Shown here in pieces: positions 11,571 to 64,000 of a stretch of DNA of 64,000 nucleotides. The DNA lies in IMG/VR virus record IMGVR_UViG_3300025133_009608, positions 124,001-188,000 of that record. One strand, written 5' to 3'. How positions within the stretch are numbered: position 1 is the first letter of the stretch; each line of letters opens with the position of its first letter. Below the pieces are notes generated by a model that saw nothing but the letters and a program-made list of their open reading frames with translations, ran no database searches and was not told where the DNA came from. The stretch comes from a virus. A program made the translations under genes and the position numbers.

Positions 11571-11596
11571 CTAATTAACCCCAAGTAATAAGAAAA

Positions 11597-11999
11597 GGTG
11601 GACCCGGCGGGAGTCGAACCCGCGTCCAGAAAGTTTTAAAAGTTAAGTCATTCACAGGTTTGTTTAGTTAAATTTCCAAACTAAAAAGGTAGCAACAAAT
11701 TTCCCGCTTCTATGTTGCCTCGAAATCCACCTGATACAAAAGGTATCCACCTATCTCTAAGTGAAGTAAGCTTGTGCCAGGGAACCATTTTTGATTTTTT
11801 ATTTTCGTAGGATCTCTACCTATTATTCAATTTTGGGTAATAAGGTTATTGAAAACCCCACCACTAAGCAGCTAAAGCTGCGGCGTAGAAGTGATTATTG
11901 TTATTTGCAATTATCGTTTTGATGAACCTTTTAGCTTGAATCATCATTAAAGCACCTGCACTCTATTTCTCTGCTCCCTGTCGAAACCGTTACGAGCCC
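11597..11999 (-). ncRNA. ssrA: tmRNA (SsrA), phage-encoded
   Basis: The 5' end contains GTAACGGTTTCGACAGGGA and the 3' end GGGTTCGACTCCCGCC, both diagnostic of tmRNA. The acceptor GGGCTCG pairs with CGGGTCC (two wobbles), discriminator A; only CC of CCA is encoded. The reading frame resumes at GCA (11906-11908) and encodes ANNNNHFYAAALAA, then TAG (11864-11866), a degradation tag ending in LAA. The RNA would rescue stalled ribosomes with a phage-specified tag. It sits directly behind the stop of the SAM methyltransferase gene. Confidence 0.95.
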
Positions 12000-13066: not shown

Positions 13067-13918
13067 TTAGTAACTCCTGAAGTCTCTAATATCGAATTCT
13101 CGCCCTAGAGTTTTTCGAATACTGCCAAGCGCCCTGATCTCCATCTTTCTCGCCCACTCTCTAGAGATCTTTAAATCAGCTGCTAACTCCCGCAGTGTTT
13201 TTTTCTTATCCGAAAGGAATCGCTCTTTTACAATGTATCTCTCATCGTCGGGGAGTCGACTCAGAGCCGCCCCTATTGCTAGGGATAAGGCGACTTTTGA
13301 ACTCTCCTTCTCTACCTTGTCCTCCATTGTACCCTCATCAACCAGTAAGTCCTGCATTGTTGCGCCATTAGACTCATCTCCGATCGGAGTGCTAAGAGAT
13401 GTGTCATGTCCAGATAAGGCCTTTTGCATTTCCACAAGATCGGGGATCGAAACCCCCAGCAGATCGGCGATTCTAGTGGTTTTTTTATCCCCACACAATC
13501 CTTCTTTTTCCGCCTTTAGGCGTGCCTGGGTGATTCTAAAGAAAATGGCCCTAGAACTCCTGGTCGTTGCAAGGCGCACTATGCACTTTCGATCCATCAT
13601 GTGCCGCTTCATATAGGCGTTTGCCCACATCATTCCGTAGGACAAAAAGCTTGCGCCCTTATCTGGATCATAAGACTCCGCCGCCCGAAGCAAGCCAGCC
13701 ACCCCCTCTTGCATTAAATCTTCAAACGATGAGGCTACATTTTTTGAAGATAGCTTCCAAGCCTCCCTTGAAACTAATCTCATGTTTGAGAAAATTACAG
13801 CATCAAGAGCCTTTTTGTCTCCATCCGACTGCCAGATAGCTATAAGCTCCTTTTGCTTGTCATGAGGCATTGGGGGGTTTTCTGACAAAACCCTAGAAAG
13901 ATAAGATGAGTGTAGCAT
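13067..13918 (-). CDS. RNA polymerase sigma factor (sigma70 family, RpoH-like)
   Basis: About 283 residues, starting MLHSSYLSRVLSENPPM. Region 2 (NMRLVSREAWKL, EDLMQEGVAGLLRAAESYDP, ASFLSYGMMWANAYMKRHM) contains the core-binding and -10 recognition helices. Region 4 (TLRELAADLKISREWARKMEIRALGSIRKTL) is the -35 helix-turn-helix. The size and absence of region 1.1 fit heat-shock-type sigma factors. It could redirect host RNA polymerase to phage promoters. The frame is open to 13987, but that start overlaps the upstream gene. Confidence 0.92.
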   Translation of the reverse strand: MLHSSYLSRVLSENPPMPHDKQKELIAIWQSDGDKKALDAVIFSNMRLVSREAWKLSSKNVASSFEDLMQEGVAGLLRAAESYDPDKGASFLSYGMMWANAYMKRHMMDRKCIVRLATTRSSRAIFFRITQARLKAEKEGLCGDKKTTRIADLLGVSIPDLVEMQKALSGHDTSLSTPIGDESNGATMQDLLVDEGTMEDKVEKESSKVALSLAIGAALSRLPDDERYIVKERFLSDKKKTLRELAADLKISREWARKMEIRALGSIRKTLGREFDIRDFRSY

Positions 13919-13925
13919 GTTTTCT

Positions 13926-14129
13926 CTATTTAAATATGGAATTGTGGCGGGAGATGGAGACTGTAACTGTGTTATCAACCGATGCAATCACTTTTGTCCC
14001 AAAGGAATTAGCGGGGTAATTTTTCTCATAATCATCAATCCAAGATTTGATCTGATATCCAAAGCCTGTTATAGATGTAGTTGTTTTCTTTTTTGTCTTT
14101 TCAGTCCAATTTATCTTAAACATATCCAT
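13926..14129 (-). CDS. Hypothetical basic protein
   Basis: 67 residues starting MDMFKINWTEKTKKKTT; the ATG lies 3 nt after the stop of the upstream gene. Strand-rich C-terminus. Function unknown; start uncertain (an in-frame TTG lies upstream). Confidence 0.55.
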   Translation of the reverse strand: MDMFKINWTEKTKKKTTTSITGFGYQIKSWIDDYEKNYPANSFGTKVIASVDNTVTVSISRHNSIFK

Positions 14130-15107: not shown

Positions 15108-15347
15108 TTATTGCTCCGGAGGCCTTCCACATCGTATCTCCGTTGTCTGAGCGGAATTGTAAATATAAAACAAAGATCCCTCTTCTACGATACACGGAAA
15201 TAATGCCATTGGCATGGAGATATAACTTACTTCGTTTTCAGAGTTAAGCAACTCAACTTCTGCATAATTATTAATTATTTGGTCTACAGAGCCCACCAGA
15301 ACTACGAATAACGCTGCCGTGTGCTGAATATTTATTTTGATATTCAT
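15108..15347 (-). CDS. Small beta-rich protein (DUF3006-like pattern)
   Basis: A 79-residue protein: VDQIINNYAEVELL, then ISMPMALFPCIVEEGSLFYI. The order of strand pair, short insert and xxPxxxxEGxxxxI resembles DUF3006-type small proteins (weak inference). Overlaps the acetyltransferase gene start region by 4 nt. Confidence 0.58.
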   Translation of the reverse strand: MNIKINIQHTAALFVVLVGSVDQIINNYAEVELLNSENEVSYISMPMALFPCIVEEGSLFYIYNSAQTTEIRCGRPPEQ

Positions 15348-15760
15348 AATTTATATTCAAAATTTACAGTTGTACTGTTTTCTCTTAATTTTATAGCATT
15401 ATTTTTTAAATGAAACTTTTCTGCCATCACAGTTTGTGGGGACAGGGTTATTACTCTAAAATCTTTTTTCTTTTCTCGTGCCATATCTAATATAGATTCT
15501 ATGATTTTTCTACCGGCTCCACGCTGATGACTCCAAACTGTATAGGGAGTTATAATCTTCCCGTTGGGATCGGCCATTAGCTCCAAGTCTGAAACCGAAG
15601 CTGGAATATCATTTAAAAATGATATACAAATAAAAGCTCTAAACTCACCGTCTACTATGAGTCCATAAATTCTTCTACCACTACTTGTTCTGAATTCATT
15701 TGAAAGATTCGGCCTTACCGGATCATCCTCTGTTTTTATTTTAAAGATTTCTTTTAACAT
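15344..15760 (-). CDS. GNAT-family N-acetyltransferase
   Basis: 138 residues from ATG (MLKEIFKIKTEDD). VWSHQRGAGRKIIESILDMA is the acetyl-CoA binding motif A, followed by VITLSPQ and a late helix FHLKNNA, as in GNAT proteins. Phage GNATs may modify host proteins; the target is unknown. The frame is open upstream to a TTG at 15832, inside the adjacent structured RNA; the downstream ATG is preferred. Confidence 0.78.
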   Translation of the reverse strand: MLKEIFKIKTEDDPVRPNLSNEFRTSSGRRIYGLIVDGEFRAFICISFLNDIPASVSDLELMADPNGKIITPYTVWSHQRGAGRKIIESILDMAREKKKDFRVITLSPQTVMAEKFHLKNNAIKLRENSTTVNFEYKL

Positions 15761-15839
15761 TATTTTCCACAACTGTATATCAAAAAAGGAGAGAAATTTA
15801 GCACTTCTATTTTCTCTGCTTGTGATCACCAAGCCTTTT

Positions 15840-16440
15840 GGGCCTGTCCCCTTTTCGGGTTAGGTGTAAGCACACCGGAAAGTAAAAACCGTTCACAAGC
15901 TTTCTCCCTGTTCTCGGCCTGTAAAGACCACGGAACAGCACGCCCTACTATCGTCATAATATTCTGCGTTTCTTCGAGTAAGCTGTACACTTCACCTCTT
16001 AGTTGCGCGTTATGTTTTTAACCCTTGGTAGGCCATCCACATAACCCCTTTCGGGACGACAGACTTGCTTCCAAATCCGCCAGAGAGACTTCTATTACCG
16101 ACAGTTAGATTCTAGAGAGGTTTAGCTCCCATTTCCAAGACTTTGTTTCTTGGTTATACCCTTATCCCGCTTCCACGATGAACCTACAAGTCCGTGGATA
16201 CTCTCGGCAGTACTCCTTCAGTGGTATGAAGGCCCATGCGTCGAATCACTAGATGATATTCAAAGCTACCACGCTTCTTTACTCATCCCCTCTCTTAGCT
16301 GGGCGGCAGTGGAGCATAAGAATGCTCCTTTCCCAATCGAGGTTTTCTCTATTGCCTTGGCTTTCGCCGTTGCACTCAAAGATCGGTAATTCCATTTGAG
16401 TTTAAAGACCCGAGAACTGGGGTCTTTATAGTGATGTAAA
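15840..16440 (-). ncRNA. Large structured non-coding RNA candidate (ROOL/GOLLD-type size and setting)
   Basis: About 600 nt with no supportable gene, next to tRNA-Ser. Read on the minus strand it forms many strong local hairpins in succession: AAAGACCC/GGGTCTTT, CTCAAA/TTTGAG, GGCGAAAGCC, GGAGCAT TCTT ATGCTCC, CCTTCA/TGAAGG, CCACG/CGTGG, CCAAGA/TCTTGG, CCCGAAAGGGG, CTGTTC/GAACAG, GGTGT GCTT ACACC. Size, structure density and position beside tRNA genes in a phage recall the ornate ROOL and GOLLD RNA families. Strand is inferred from neighbours and hairpin order. Confidence 0.65.
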
Positions 16441-16500
16441 AGATCAGAAGATATATTATAATACAATTATTACAAATATAATTTAATTTTTTCTAATAAA

Positions 16501-16586
16501 TGGCGGAAGGCTAGGGACTCGAACCCTAAACTGCTTTCACAGCGACGGATTTCAAATCCGCGTCCTAGCCAATTCGGATGCCTTCC
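16501..16586 (-). tRNA. tRNA-Ser (anticodon UGA)
   Basis: Class II tRNA. The acceptor GGAAGGC/GCCTTCC is followed by G and an encoded CCA; D-stem TCC/GGA; anticodon loop TTTGAAA (anticodon TGA). The variable arm is CTG...CAG. The T-arm is TAGGG TTCGAGT CCCTA. Confidence 0.92.
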
Positions 16587-16593
16587 TTTGTGG

Positions 16594-20036: not shown

Positions 20037-20426
20037 CTATGCCTCCTTCCACCAGACATAGCTTTTTCTGGTCTTTAGATAATCTGGGTTGTTTTCATGT
20101 TTGTACGCTTCAATTTCAAATGGAATTTGAAAATAAGCATCCATAGGATTCATTCCGCGAAAAAGATTTCTTACCCAAAAGAATGCGTACAGTACGGGGA
20201 ATCCAACGAACAGGAGTTCTATCCACTGCTGGTAATGAATTGTTTCATGGACTTTCATCTCTGGAGGTGCAGTCTCTCTGCAGAACACTAAGAATAGAAT
20301 ACTTATTGCGCTAATTTCTATTGGAGATATTTTAGATAGCAGCCTCGGAACGAAGCTATTTTCAATAAATATAGGCTTAAAGTCTTTTATCCTTCTTAGC
20401 GGCTCTTCTTCATTCTTGACTGTCAT
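20037..20426 (-). CDS. Membrane-associated HExxH protein
   Basis: A 129-residue protein. KVHETIHYQQWIELLFVGFPVLYAFFW places an HExxH-type motif (HETIH) before a membrane helix, and IPFEIEAYKHE supplies a third acidic ligand. The arrangement matches a bacterial/phage family of small membrane zincin-like proteins of unknown role. Overlaps the next gene by 17 nt. Confidence 0.7.
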   Translation of the reverse strand: MTVKNEEEPLRRIKDFKPIFIENSFVPRLLSKISPIEISAISILFLVFCRETAPPEMKVHETIHYQQWIELLFVGFPVLYAFFWVRNLFRGMNPMDAYFQIPFEIEAYKHENNPDYLKTRKSYVWWKEA

Positions 20427-53749: not shown

Positions 53750-53794
53750 ATTTTCCTTCCTTCTGCTATTATAACGATCCAACGACTCGTTCAC

Positions 53795-53831
53795 GGACAA
53801 CAAATCTGAGATTTATTTTGAACGCCTCGCC
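53795..53831. repeat. 37-bp direct repeat, copy 1 (promoter-like)
   Basis: Identical to 53901-53937. Minus strand reads CAAAATAAATCTCAGATTTG, a possible relative of the promoter family. Confidence 0.75.
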
Positions 53832-53900
53832 GCGAGGTCTGGGACTATTGGCGGTAACTCGCCTTCCCTACTATTATAGACGACAAGAATGGCCGCTGGC

Positions 53901-53937
53901 GGACAACAAATCTGAGATTTATTTTGAACGCCTCGCC
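53901..53937. repeat. 37-bp direct repeat, copy 2
   Basis: Second identical copy. A partial third (GGGACAACGAATC-A-rich) is at 53975-54000. The 418 bp between 53750 and 54167 hold no supportable gene apart from these. Confidence 0.75.
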
Positions 53938-60692: not shown

Positions 60693-61118
60693 CTACTTGC
60701 TAAGCGCGTGCGCCGCCCAAAACTCTCTTGCCGCATCCGCATCGTGGTTATCTGGGTCGTCAGGGTTTTGAGGGGCCAGCGGGCCACCATAAACAGTGAA
60801 CAACGTGGCCGCCTCACCATCTCGAACCCCAATCACCTGAACATACCCAACTGGCCGCGTGGGACGATCAATCATGCGATCTGCCCACGTGCGTGGATCA
60901 TTTGCGCTAAATCGCACAATCCGTTCTACTTCAGTTTCTAATACTGGCTCATCGCCCATAGCTGGGCCGTGAAGCCCGCAAGGAACAGTCCCCAACTCAG
61001 CGGGAATCTCCACTTGACGAATAAAGAACCCATCTACCTGCTCTGCGATCACGGCGTTCACGTGCGCTTGCTGCTCATCGGAAATGCCGTGATCGGCGTG
61101 CAAAACTGTTACTTCCAT
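60693..61118 (-). CDS. Conserved hypothetical phage protein
   Basis: A 141-residue protein. VPCGLHGPAMGDEPVLE and RMIDRPTRPVGYVQVIGV match a small phage protein family I recall but cannot name. Ends LAPQNPDDPDNHDADAAREF. Promoter 44 nt upstream. Function unknown. Confidence 0.72.
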   Translation of the reverse strand: MEVTVLHADHGISDEQQAHVNAVIAEQVDGFFIRQVEIPAELGTVPCGLHGPAMGDEPVLETEVERIVRFSANDPRTWADRMIDRPTRPVGYVQVIGVRDGEAATLFTVYGGPLAPQNPDDPDNHDADAAREFWAAHALSK

Positions 61119-61162
61119 TTTCTATCTCCTTTCTGGGCTGAGTTATTCTGCCCTTCATATCA

Positions 61163-61186
61163 CTATAATGAATCGATCTTATTTAT
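61163..61186 (-). promoter_or_regulatory. Phage promoter (main class)
   Basis: AAGATCGATTCATTATAG core, 44 nt before the 61118 start. Confidence 0.83.
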
Positions 61187-61248
61187 GGGAGTTATTTCGT
61201 AAGCACACCTGCGTGTATAGTCTTATGAAAAACTTTTGCCCAAAAAAA

Positions 61249-61274
61249 GAAGGGGGCCGCAGGCGGCCCCCTTC
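61249..61274 (-). terminator. Rho-independent terminator
   Basis: GAAGGGGGCCGC/GCGGCCCCCTTC-type stem followed by T7 on the minus strand, after the 61291 gene. The T-run merges with a GGGCAAAAG motif copy. Confidence 0.88.
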
Positions 61275-61290
61275 TCGCTCTTTGCTCGCC

Positions 61291-61950
61291 CTATGCGTAG
61301 TGGATGGGGATCGGAGCGCGCGCATCAAACGCAACCCAGTCCTGATCCAGCCATAGATCGGGGCGATGTTTTGCCACTCGCGCCCACTCGATCCGAAATC
61401 GAGTATATTCAAACTTCTTTATCGTGCCGTCAGCCTTTTTGTACTTCCGAATATCGGCACGTAGCTTGACAGTCTCAGGGGGCAACTCTCCGAGGTCTTG
61501 AGCCCTGATCACTTCCGAGGCGTTGATCCGCCTCATCTGCAGTTCTCCGCCCATCTCCCTCACCAGAATCACCCAAAGGGGAGTCTCAGCCGCCGCCATA
61601 GCGGTGGGAATCTTGTAATGAAGGGTCAAATCACGGTTGCCGTAACCTCGGCCCTTTGACCCCTTGAGGGCAACTGGCACCATCTCTACAATGGCCCCCT
61701 CAACAATCGTCATAGGGATCACATCATCGAACAGGCCTTGGCCTCGGCCTGCCTGAAGCGGGCGACCGATGCGATCAATCTTTCCGCTCTTGGCCTTGCC
61801 ATCCCTCGCAGGGGGCAACATGTCGGCCAGAGGGCCGAGCCATGCACACACCGCGCCGAAACCAGCACCGATCCCAGCCAGCGATCCACCTGCCTCGGCA
61901 ATACGGCAAGACGCTTCTAACTCTAAATCGTTGATAAAGCTCATTTTCAA
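61291..61950 (-). CDS. Hypothetical protein
   Basis: A 219-residue protein. Helical start (RIAEAGGSLAGIGAGFGAVC), strand region MTIVEGAIVEMVPVALKG, basic YGNRDLTLHY, end KKFEYTRFRIEWARVAKHRP. Own promoter 37 nt upstream and terminator. Function unknown. Confidence 0.68.
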   Translation of the reverse strand: MKMSFINDLELEASCRIAEAGGSLAGIGAGFGAVCAWLGPLADMLPPARDGKAKSGKIDRIGRPLQAGRGQGLFDDVIPMTIVEGAIVEMVPVALKGSKGRGYGNRDLTLHYKIPTAMAAAETPLWVILVREMGGELQMRRINASEVIRAQDLGELPPETVKLRADIRKYKKADGTIKKFEYTRFRIEWARVAKHRPDLWLDQDWVAFDARAPIPIHYA

Positions 61951-61987
61951 TCCTCCGAGAAAGGTGGTTTGTCCTCTCTACACTTAC

Positions 61988-62011
61988 CTATAATGAATCG
62001 ATCTTATTTAT
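61988..62011 (-). promoter_or_regulatory. Phage promoter (main class)
   Basis: AAGATCGATTCATTATAG core, 37 nt before the 61950 start; a TTGGGCAAAAACTTT motif directly abuts its upstream edge. Confidence 0.83.
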
Positions 62012-62070
62012 AAAGTTTTTGCCCAAGTCACTCACTCCCCAGCAAAGAGGCCGAAGGCAGTTCGTGTAAT

Positions 62071-62094
62071 CCATGATAAATCGATCTTACTTAT
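62071..62094 (-). promoter_or_regulatory. Degenerate tandem promoter copy
   Basis: AAGATCGATTTATCATGG, differing in the TATAG end, 60 nt upstream of the good copy at 61988. Probably decayed. Confidence 0.4.
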
Positions 62095-62116
62095 CGAAAA
62101 GTGATAAGATGAAAGC

Positions 62117-62150
62117 GCGGAGCAGGGAGAACCACAAACCCCTGCTCCGC
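62117..62150 (-). terminator. Hairpin terminator
   Basis: GCGGAGCAGGG/CCCTGCTCCGC stem, loop ACCACAAAC, below the 62172 gene; the same loop sequence recurs at 63405-63439. Confidence 0.72.
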
Positions 62151-62171
62151 TGGAGTCGCACCACTGGCGCA

Positions 62172-62378
62172 TTACCAAGACTTGCGGTGCTTCGCGTAAC
62201 GCTGAGCCTTGCCCTTTCCTCGTCGCCCGTCGCCCCTTGAGGCCTTTGATTGATGCTTTCCAGCACCCGCCCCTGCCCGAAGAATAAGGCCAATCGCCCC
62301 CTCGTCGCGGCGGCGAGGTGCCGAAACAACAATCCGCTTTTTTTTCCTCTCGTTTACGATTTGGGGCTTTTTGGCCAT
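62172..62378 (-). CDS. Small basic protein
   Basis: 68 residues from MAKKPQIVNERKKKRIVVSA; GGGAGG ahead of ATG. Arg/Lys/Gly-rich end (ASRGDGRRGKGKAQRYAKHR). Likely nucleic-acid or ribosome binding. Promoter 20 nt upstream. Confidence 0.68.
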   Translation of the reverse strand: MAKKPQIVNERKKKRIVVSAPRRRDEGAIGLILRAGAGAGKHQSKASRGDGRRGKGKAQRYAKHRKSW

Positions 62379-62398
62379 CACATCCTCCCTATACTTCG

Positions 62399-62422
62399 CT
62401 ATAATGAATCGATCTTATTTAC
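62399..62422 (-). promoter_or_regulatory. Phage promoter (main class)
   Basis: AAGATCGATTCATTATAG core, 20 nt before the 62378 start; last stop codon of the gene above lies in its edge. Confidence 0.83.
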
Positions 62423-62615
62423 GGGAAACGAGGCCGCCCATTGGAGCGTATTCAAAGATATTCGGATTTGTTAGAATGTCCCTTGTTTTTTCTCGGATAT
62501 ACTCAAGCGTACACGCCGAGAAGGTACGGAGGCAATACCCCTCTGTTCCGTTATGATAAATGGCATGAGCATAGCAAAGCTCGCCCTCGCGCGCTTCAAT
62601 GTATATTCCTTCCAT
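62415..62615 (-). CDS. Hypothetical protein
   Basis: A 66-residue protein: GIYIEAREGELCYAHAIYHN, then CLRTFSACTLEYIREKTRDI, resembling small phage proteins with a strand pair and helix. Stop codon lies in the next promoter. Promoter 45 nt upstream. Confidence 0.63.
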   Translation of the reverse strand: MEGIYIEAREGELCYAHAIYHNGTEGYCLRTFSACTLEYIREKTRDILTNPNIFEYAPMGGLVSRK

Positions 62616-62660
62616 TTCCTCATCCCTCCGAGAAAGGTGGTTTGTCCTCTCTACACTTAC

Positions 62661-62684
62661 CTATAATGAATCGATCTTATTTAT
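62661..62684 (-). promoter_or_regulatory. Phage promoter (main class)
   Basis: AAGATCGATTCATTATAG core, 45 nt before the 62615 start. Confidence 0.83.
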
Positions 62685-62716
62685 GGAAGTTATTGCTTAT
62701 AAGTATAGCCCGAAGC

Positions 62717-62738
62717 GGGGCGCGGATATCCGCGCCCC
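62717..62738 (-). terminator. Palindromic hairpin terminator
   Basis: GGGGCGCGGAT/ATCCGCGCCCC perfect palindrome below the 62747 gene. Confidence 0.7.
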
Positions 62739-62746
62739 TATGGGAG

Positions 62747-63289
62747 TTATCCGACCCTCTCGCCTCCGATGGATACGTACTCATAAGAGCCGGCGGTAAG
62801 CTTGAACCTGCGGAACTTGCTCGCTGGAGCCTGACGCTGGATCCAGCGTTTTACCAGCGTCTTGTCAGCGGAGGTTACCGCCTTGTAAACTCCGCGCTGT
62901 ACGGTGTCTTTGGAGACAATCAAGCCCCAGAGGTAAAGATCCCCTTGAGGGTCTGACGCAAGTCGGGCCAACCCGTCTTGTACATAGTTGTAGTCGGTAG
63001 AGCCGCCACCAGCGGCGATCCGAGAAATACTTTTCTCGTAACTTGCGGACTGCTCCGCAAGAGCCTTGCGGCAAGTTTCAAGGTCAACACCTTGAACTCC
63101 GCAGTTCGCGAACACCGTCTCGGCAGTCATCTCGGCCAGCACGATCGCCGATCGCTCCAACAGGGACAGGTAACTAACCTTTCCGTTTACCGTGTAATGG
63201 GCGATCTCGCCAGAAGTCTTGCTCTCATAAGAACGAAGATGAAGGAAGCCGCCAGCTACGGCCGCCGAGTTTGCAGTTTGAATATCCAT
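62747..63289 (-). CDS. Hypothetical protein
   Basis: 180 residues from MDIQTANSAAVAGGFLHLRS; TTGGAG ahead of ATG. TSGEIAHYTVNGKVSYLSLL and YLWGLIVSKDTVQRGVYK are distinctive, and the C-terminus is basic and aromatic. Own promoter 58 nt upstream and terminator. Function unknown. Confidence 0.7.
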   Translation of the reverse strand: MDIQTANSAAVAGGFLHLRSYESKTSGEIAHYTVNGKVSYLSLLERSAIVLAEMTAETVFANCGVQGVDLETCRKALAEQSASYEKSISRIAAGGGSTDYNYVQDGLARLASDPQGDLYLWGLIVSKDTVQRGVYKAVTSADKTLVKRWIQRQAPASKFRRFKLTAGSYEYVSIGGERVG

Positions 63290-63347
63290 GATAAACTCCA
63301 ACGCAAAGAGGGGAAAAGTAAAAGTGGTTTGTCCTCTCTACACTTAC

Positions 63348-63371
63348 CTATAATGAATCGATCTTATTTAT
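63348..63371 (-). promoter_or_regulatory. Phage promoter (main class)
   Basis: AAGATCGATTCATTATAG core, 58 nt before the 63289 start. Confidence 0.83.
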
Positions 63372-63404
63372 GGAAGTTATATAGAAACATTTGAGACATG
63401 AGTT

Positions 63405-63439
63405 GGGCGGCCGAAGAAAACCACAAACCTCGGCCGCCC
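63405..63439 (-). terminator. Hairpin terminator
   Basis: GGGCGGCCGA/TCGGCCGCCC stem with loop AACCACAAACC below the 63480 gene. Confidence 0.72.
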
Positions 63440-63479
63440 TGCGAGAATCACCGCCAGACTCGATCGCAACTCAAAAGTT

Positions 63480-63770
63480 TTAGTATGCCACCTGAACCCA
63501 TTTTGTGGACTCAGGTGTGCTAACGCTCTCCAGACCGTCATACTCAGATATTACATACCTGCACCCCTCATGGCATTCCACCTCAAGCGAGGCGTTCGGC
63601 CCAGAGGCCGCCTCCTCTCCGAGCGCGAGCACACACTCTACGAGAAGGGGATCGTGCCTATTATTGTAATAAAAAGACTCAGGATCAGCCCCACGAGCAG
63701 TCAGCCATTCTTCTGCCGCAGATGACAACCCGAAGCCGCCATAACAACTATTCACTACTACTTTAAACAT
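63480..63770 (-). CDS. Hypothetical protein
   Basis: A 96-residue protein (FKVVVNSCYGGFGLSSAAEE; DPLLVECVLALGEEA; YVISEYDGLESVSTPE). The VVNSCYGGFGLS start recalls small conserved phage proteins. Promoter 22 nt upstream. Confidence 0.68.
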   Translation of the reverse strand: MFKVVVNSCYGGFGLSSAAEEWLTARGADPESFYYNNRHDPLLVECVLALGEEAASGPNASLEVECHEGCRYVISEYDGLESVSTPESTKWVQVAY

Positions 63771-63792
63771 TTTCTATTCTCCCTTCATATCA

Positions 63793-63816
63793 CTATAATG
63801 AATCGATCTTATTTAT
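63793..63816 (-). promoter_or_regulatory. Phage promoter (main class)
   Basis: AAGATCGATTCATTATAG core, 22 nt before the 63770 start. Confidence 0.83.
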
Positions 63817-63842
63817 GGAACAAGTGCGTTCGTGCCTACGGG

Positions 63843-63870
63843 GGAATGGGGCCGTATACGGCCCCATTCC
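63843..63870 (-). terminator. Palindromic hairpin terminator
   Basis: GGAATGGGGCCGTA/TACGGCCCCATTCC perfect palindrome below the ArdC-like gene. Confidence 0.7.
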
Positions 63871-63876
63871 ATTTGT

Positions 63877-64000
63877 CTAAAGCTCCCTTAGAAACTTGAT
63901 GGCACGGTTCGCTTGCCCTGCGGCCTCCGAGATTTTTCTCGGATCTTTTTTGAGACAGCGAATCCAAGACCCGATGTAGGCTTCGTGATTTTTAAAGATC
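63877..64000 (-). CDS. ArdC-like antirestriction/zincin protein, C-terminal fragment
   Basis: The gene enters from the right edge; 40 C-terminal residues are visible. NHEAYIGSWIRCLKKDPRKI and SEAAGQANRAIKFL match the C-terminal helices of ArdC-type (DUF1738/zincin-like) proteins, which protect incoming DNA from restriction. The catalytic part lies outside the window. Confidence 0.72.
   Translation of the reverse strand, partial: IFKNHEAYIGSWIRCLKKDPRKISEAAGQANRAIKFLREL

Follow-up and report, generated by a model that had tools for sequence, protein, structure and literature searches.

The window is a stretch of 64,000 nucleotides corresponding to bases 124001-188000 of a 316,664-base IMG/VR virus record. 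Next to a tRNA-Ser gene lies a region predicted to encode a large structured RNA. The locus consists of the following features.

16501..16586, minus strand: tRNA-Ser (tga), the upstream neighbour (ARAGORN and Rfam)
16433..16495, minus strand: A+T-rich stretch containing weak matches to sigma70-like promoters and, at the 5' edge of the RNA, a conserved TTCTTT-type motif (weak)
15784..16445, minus strand: predicted large structured non-coding RNA, ~650 nt (six homologous loci, conservation limits, covariation)
15784..15817, minus strand: terminator-like hairpin AGAGAAA...TTTCTCT followed by CCTTTTTT (fold, T run)
15344..15760, minus strand: downstream ORF, ATG at 15760, beginning past the terminator-like hairpin (ORF calls)

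The RNA is on the same minus strand as the neighbouring genes. Its 5' end is at ~16445, ~56 nt past tRNA-Ser, and its 3' end at ~15784. These limits were placed using the drop in conservation and the terminator-like hairpin. The downstream ORF has no Pfam or PHROG match.

The first-pass annotation described this region as free of genes and strongly folding. Coding calls are indeed nearly absent. A coding caller placed no gene in 15773-16265 or 16380-16593 and made one weak 38-aa call in between. Short ORFs are present on both strands, none of them convincing between tRNA-Ser and the ORF at 15760. When homologs were compared, codon position had no effect on substitution rate (p 0.22), there was no 3-base periodicity, and many indels were not divisible by three. 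ORFs inside the region were rejected as genes because codon periodicity is absent. The RNA is non-coding.

Strong folding was confirmed for one strand, the minus strand. Here, 15830-16445 folds to -201 kcal/mol (z -3.3, 20 shuffles); the plus strand of the same region has a z-score of -1.75 (20 shuffles). Three family members gave z-scores of -3.3, -3.9 and -3.8. GC content is 47% in the RNA region compared to 43% across the window. When the window was scanned in sliding steps, this locus ranked on the minus strand among the stronger-folding stretches, yet was not the top one. Since other stretches fold as strongly, folding energy alone is no proof of an RNA. The lowest z-scores of the window fall at 60700-63900, on both strands, where no tandem repeats were found. 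Separately, 53794-53937 contains a 38-nt sequence repeated exactly in direct orientation, the two copies lying 106 bases apart in gene-poor DNA that folds strongly on both strands.

Relatives were recovered by scanning 2.9 million viral contigs (IMG/VR) for exact 16-mers; other approaches gave none. The 16-mer CAACTAAGAGGTGAAG identified locus L177, 79% identical to the window copy over 649 nt. A second 16-mer, GACTTGTAGGTTCATC, common to the window and L177, identified L197, L194, L205 and L200. Loci L194 and L205 are nearly identical and were counted as one distinct member. Hence, the family comprises six loci and five distinct sequences including the window, with 66-80% pairwise identity, all from uncultivated metagenomic contigs. 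The carrier contigs span 37-317 kb, the five outside the window measuring 293, 37, 76, 62 and 223 kb. A profile built from the family sequences matched all six loci at E 1e-164 or better. Such scores are expected because the scored sequences went into the profile; independent evidence comes from pairwise BLAST.

The remaining 16-mer matches in viral contigs were judged to be chance, as were both matches from a first 19-mer scan and five GTDB matches to a 17-mer. Two exact-pattern scans of GTDB genomes found no relative. Likewise, no GenBank phage gave a blastn match for any of the five distinct members, and a DNA similarity search of PLSDB plasmids with the region found no relative. Nine loci reached via the downstream ORF (15347-15757) all lacked the RNA, and the sigma factor used as bait led directly to no RNA homolog. 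The RNA was also absent from the searched records of terminase relatives of the window's phage, including four with a sigma-factor relative; blastn across 47 records (80 terminase-relative loci) returned short weak matches only. A match beside tRNA-Ser in L107/L108 was rejected because it falls within a small reading frame. Elements in L126 and L128 were rejected as homologs; they resemble each other and not this RNA. These elements (L126 12416-12190, minus strand; L128 9555-9780, plus strand) constitute a different gene-free structure with the motif CAGATGAA..CTAT..GTAGYTAGTAATC; a small ORF rich in lysine and arginine lies downstream. They have no Rfam match.

A consensus structure was derived with RNAalifold from the five distinct sequences and scored on the same alignment that produced it. 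It comprises 161 pairs in ~27 helices; the covariation term is -26.7 kcal/mol, and 95.5% of alignment cells are paired. Compensatory changes occur in 71 of the 161 pairs, compared to 31.9 +/- 3.9 in shuffles. Sliding the partners by 1-3 columns left 6-18 pairs with such changes. The compensated helices (2, 6, 8-10, 12, 16, 17, 19 and 21) are distributed along the molecule. This takes the case for a real RNA beyond folding energy, and an earlier description of the region as an ornate non-coding RNA is confirmed across the five homologs. We conclude that a conserved structured RNA is almost certainly encoded here. Its predicted elements, all on the minus strand, are listed below.

16403..16428: 5' hairpin TAAAGACCC/GGGTCTTTA (single-sequence fold of the window copy)
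15891..16417: helix 1, which closes the structure over a long range by pairing 16417-16408 with 15900-15891 (93% of cells paired, zero compensatory changes)
16375..16400: helix 2 (compensatory changes in 7 of 8 pairs)
16289..16342: arm of helices 5-8; loop 16321-16318 pairs with 16296-16293 (alignment, contact scan)
16251..16288: arm of helices 9-10, apical loop GUGGUA at 16272-16267 (alignment)
16200..16246: arm of helices 11-12, apical loop UACCAC at 16226-16221 (alignment)
16221..16272: 6-bp kissing contact between loops 16272-16267 and 16226-16221 (formed in 5 of 5 sequences, with double changes)
16164..16198: helices 13-14, the most strongly conserved block, GGACUUGUAGGUUCAUCGUGGAA (close to invariant across the five)
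15943..16109: helices 17-24, a multibranch domain of 167 nt at the centre and the basis of covariance model R1 (alignment)
16046..16055: CCC-GAAA-GGG hairpin with GNRA tetraloop (invariant in all five)
15984..15989: palindromic UGUACA in an apical loop, a candidate symmetric kissing loop (invariant in the alignment; function inferred)
15904..15942: helix 25, CUGUUC/GAACAG, conserved (alignment)

The 5' hairpin at 16428-16403 and helix 1 exclude each other and hence are alternatives. Helices 13, 14, 20 and much of 25 are invariant or nearly so, and covariation therefore gives no test of them. The 3' tail past helix 27 aligns poorly in L205 and L200. GNRA-capped hairpins, also claimed from the first inspection, are real: GAAA caps occur at 16055-16046 and in a second hairpin at 16368-16359.

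The 6-bp contact was spotted by eye before a scan that covered all unpaired alignment columns. In the scan, it was the only 6-bp contact with double changes. It joins the apical loop of helix 10 to that of helix 12, with the variants GUGGUA/UACCAC, GUGGAA/UUCCGC and GUAGUG/UACUAC. A parallel-orientation control yielded no contact with double changes. The scan also found a 4-bp contact between loop 8 and a joint (UCUU/AAGA, UCAU/GUGA). An AGAGA/UCUCU match between columns 83-87 and 357-361 is invariant and is a candidate contact. Because the two hairpins are adjacent arms, intramolecular kissing is feasible, and the 6-bp contact could form within one molecule. Elements of these kinds, like the invariant UGUACA loop and the GNRA hairpin, join chains in ROOL, GOLLD and OLE (PMC12286853); here they may act within or between molecules.

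Conservation starts at the TTCTTT-type motif (~16445) and stops at the 3' hairpin. The upstream sigma70-like matches are weak, their combined score being reached in 4% of mononucleotide shuffles. The hairpin at 15784-15817 was missed by an automated search because of its long loop. Together with the T run, it is clear in the window, L177, L197 and L205 (four of five distinct members), and weaker in L200.

Outside these limits, the neighbouring genes differ among distinct carriers and synteny is absent. The RNA shares its strand with most neighbours. Genes for an FKBP-type isomerase and an asparagine synthase are its neighbours in G062, a GP88-like gene is nearby in G066, and small orphan ORFs are found in G065. 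In G064 and G067 only, a zinc-finger ORF with weak zf-BED/C2H2 matches lies directly upstream (L224 11201-11755, minus strand; L227 9744-10298, plus strand). No protein neighbour is conserved across carriers. The proximity to tRNA-Ser, noted in the first-pass annotation, holds for the window; tRNA distances vary across the family. Distances are 56 nt to tRNA-Ser in the window, ~0.5 kb to tRNA-Gly in L177 and 5-8 kb in L197 and L200; L194 and L205 have no tRNA within the stretches read. With a tRNA within 1 kb in only two of five distinct members, this neighbourhood is not a defining feature. The RNA copies are 69-80% identical to that of the window, a higher figure than for most proteins compared between the carriers and the window's phage (many at 24-60% aa identity). 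Strong constraint would agree with this, as would horizontal exchange or a combination of the two.

Two large phage RNA classes, ROOL and GOLLD, form RNA-only cages, the former an octamer and the latter a 14-mer. To our knowledge, neither has an established function. ROOL had been the family suggested for this locus from length and setting. Both features were found: the RNA is ~650 nt long and is carried by IMG/VR viral contigs. Like ROOL RNAs, which measure ~550-650 nt, are borne by phages or plasmids and are often near tRNA islands, it has many stems, kissing-loop contacts and ends joined by a long-range helix. However, the ROOL model (RF03087) matched nothing at E<=10, either in the 316-kb record of the window or in the five other carrier records. 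As a positive control, the same model detected the L. salivarius pMP118 ROOL with a score of 130.4 bits. Hence, the assignment to ROOL was not upheld. The conserved blocks printed for ROOL also differ from those of the family, and the R1 domain model had no match in the ROOL plasmid. A long abundant non-coding RNA of L. salivarius is the subject of PMC5643018.

The RNA resembles GOLLD as a large ornate phage RNA with a tRNA neighbourhood and a conserved GNRA loop. Unlike GOLLD members of >800 nt, it is shorter, and cmscan with the GOLLD model (RF02032), run with no known GOLLD as positive control, had no match in the whole record or the five distinct members. The Rfam model has 416 positions; GOLLD RNA can exceed 800 nt. 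The covariance search advised in the first-pass annotation also included group I introns, and no model matched. Matches to group I or group II introns, or to rRNA, named there as grounds for abandoning the claim, were sought in Rfam and are absent (introns at E<=10). Across the region and the five distinct members, no covariance model for rRNA, tmRNA, RNase P or any other Rfam family matched. With Rfam 15 at E<=10, the region gave nothing save tRNA-Ser and chance matches.

Other large RNAs offer looser comparisons. OLE is likewise large and ornate, with symmetric kissing loops (PMC12286853), but is bacterial rather than phage-borne, and the window RNA has no Rfam match. The ~800-nt non-coding RNA of ICP1 and the lncRNAs of phage K are abundant and have been likened to ROOL and GOLLD by size, expression or, for phage K, tRNA proximity, not by sequence (PMC7567579, PMC9241854). 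The R1 domain model, under strict filters, had no match in the ICP1 or phage K genomes. No published description of the RNA was found in the open-access literature searched.

The best reading is an RNA that recalls ROOL and GOLLD in its size, its setting and its loop contacts and is unrelated to both in sequence. Judged from the alignments and model searches, the family is very likely separate from ROOL and GOLLD. It probably represents a new class of large, structured non-coding RNA carried by big tailed phages and comparable in kind to ROOL and GOLLD as regards size and setting. We infer that during infection it is made as a separate transcript, which acts as a folded RNA rather than as a message.

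By analogy with ROOL and GOLLD, self-assembly into a homo-oligomer is plausible and is the leading, if tentative, proposal for the mechanism. Copies of the RNA would self-assemble as those RNAs do. The kissing loops GUGGUA/UACCAC, perhaps with the palindromic UGUACA loop, would join copies, and GNRA or purine-rich A-minor contacts might also link them. The homo-oligomer could then be a scaffold or container during infection. It is somewhat doubtful that this is an independently evolved third phage RNA family forming a protein-free closed homo-oligomer in several big phages.

A serious alternative, itself quite possible, is a structured phage RNA whose working form is a monomer or a complex with a protein or the ribosome, for example a regulator, decoy or chaperone. 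The loop contact would then be intramolecular. The adjacency of the two kissing arms favours this, and no observation requires more than one chain. Conversely, a conserved protein partner is missing from the neighbourhood, and the size, conserved loops and setting resemble those of oligomerising RNAs (PMC12286853).

That the RNA is a catalytic or mobile element, of an intron-like or homing-associated kind, is very unlikely. The lack of synteny and the zinc-finger ORF in G064 and G067 would suit such an element, but that ORF is absent beside other members and no intron model matched. Furthermore, the RNA has its own terminator-like hairpin and sits between an intact tRNA-Ser and an intact ORF, with no interrupted exons. 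A highly divergent ROOL or GOLLD, beyond recognition by covariance models, is very unlikely. Its length class, carriers, long-range closing helix and, in the window, tRNA neighbour are those of ROOL, yet five distinct members fail both models, a genuine ROOL is readily detected by the ROOL model, and neither the printed ROOL blocks nor R1 connect the two. That there is no RNA at all, merely a degenerate gene or chance folding, is barely credible: other window stretches fold equally and short ORFs occur on both strands, but covariation is well above both controls, indels break frame with no codon periodicity, and conservation in distinct phages is full-length.

A further class of ROOL/GOLLD-like RNA, with covariation-backed structure, would permit a direct test of whether RNA assemblies are a general phage strategy. 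Five natural variants are on hand for structural work. The family also shows that large RNAs outside Rfam coverage exist in big uncultivated phages.

Several other features of the window and related records were recorded. A phage-encoded tmRNA with the tag ANNNNHFYAAALAA is located at 11596-11999 (minus strand), close to a sigma-70-type factor at 13067-13987 (minus strand). This pairing recurs in the related phage records G053 (L128) and G048 (L134). In G054:C1:169978-170838, a relative of the sigma factor contains in-frame TGA and TAG codons, consistent with a broken gene or recoding. Finally, the proteins of window ORFs at 20410, 20941 and 27994 (minus strand) share a motif resembling M(L/I)KELIKIANELDERGLVKEAD; it lies at the N terminus or close to it and is joined to bodies that differ.
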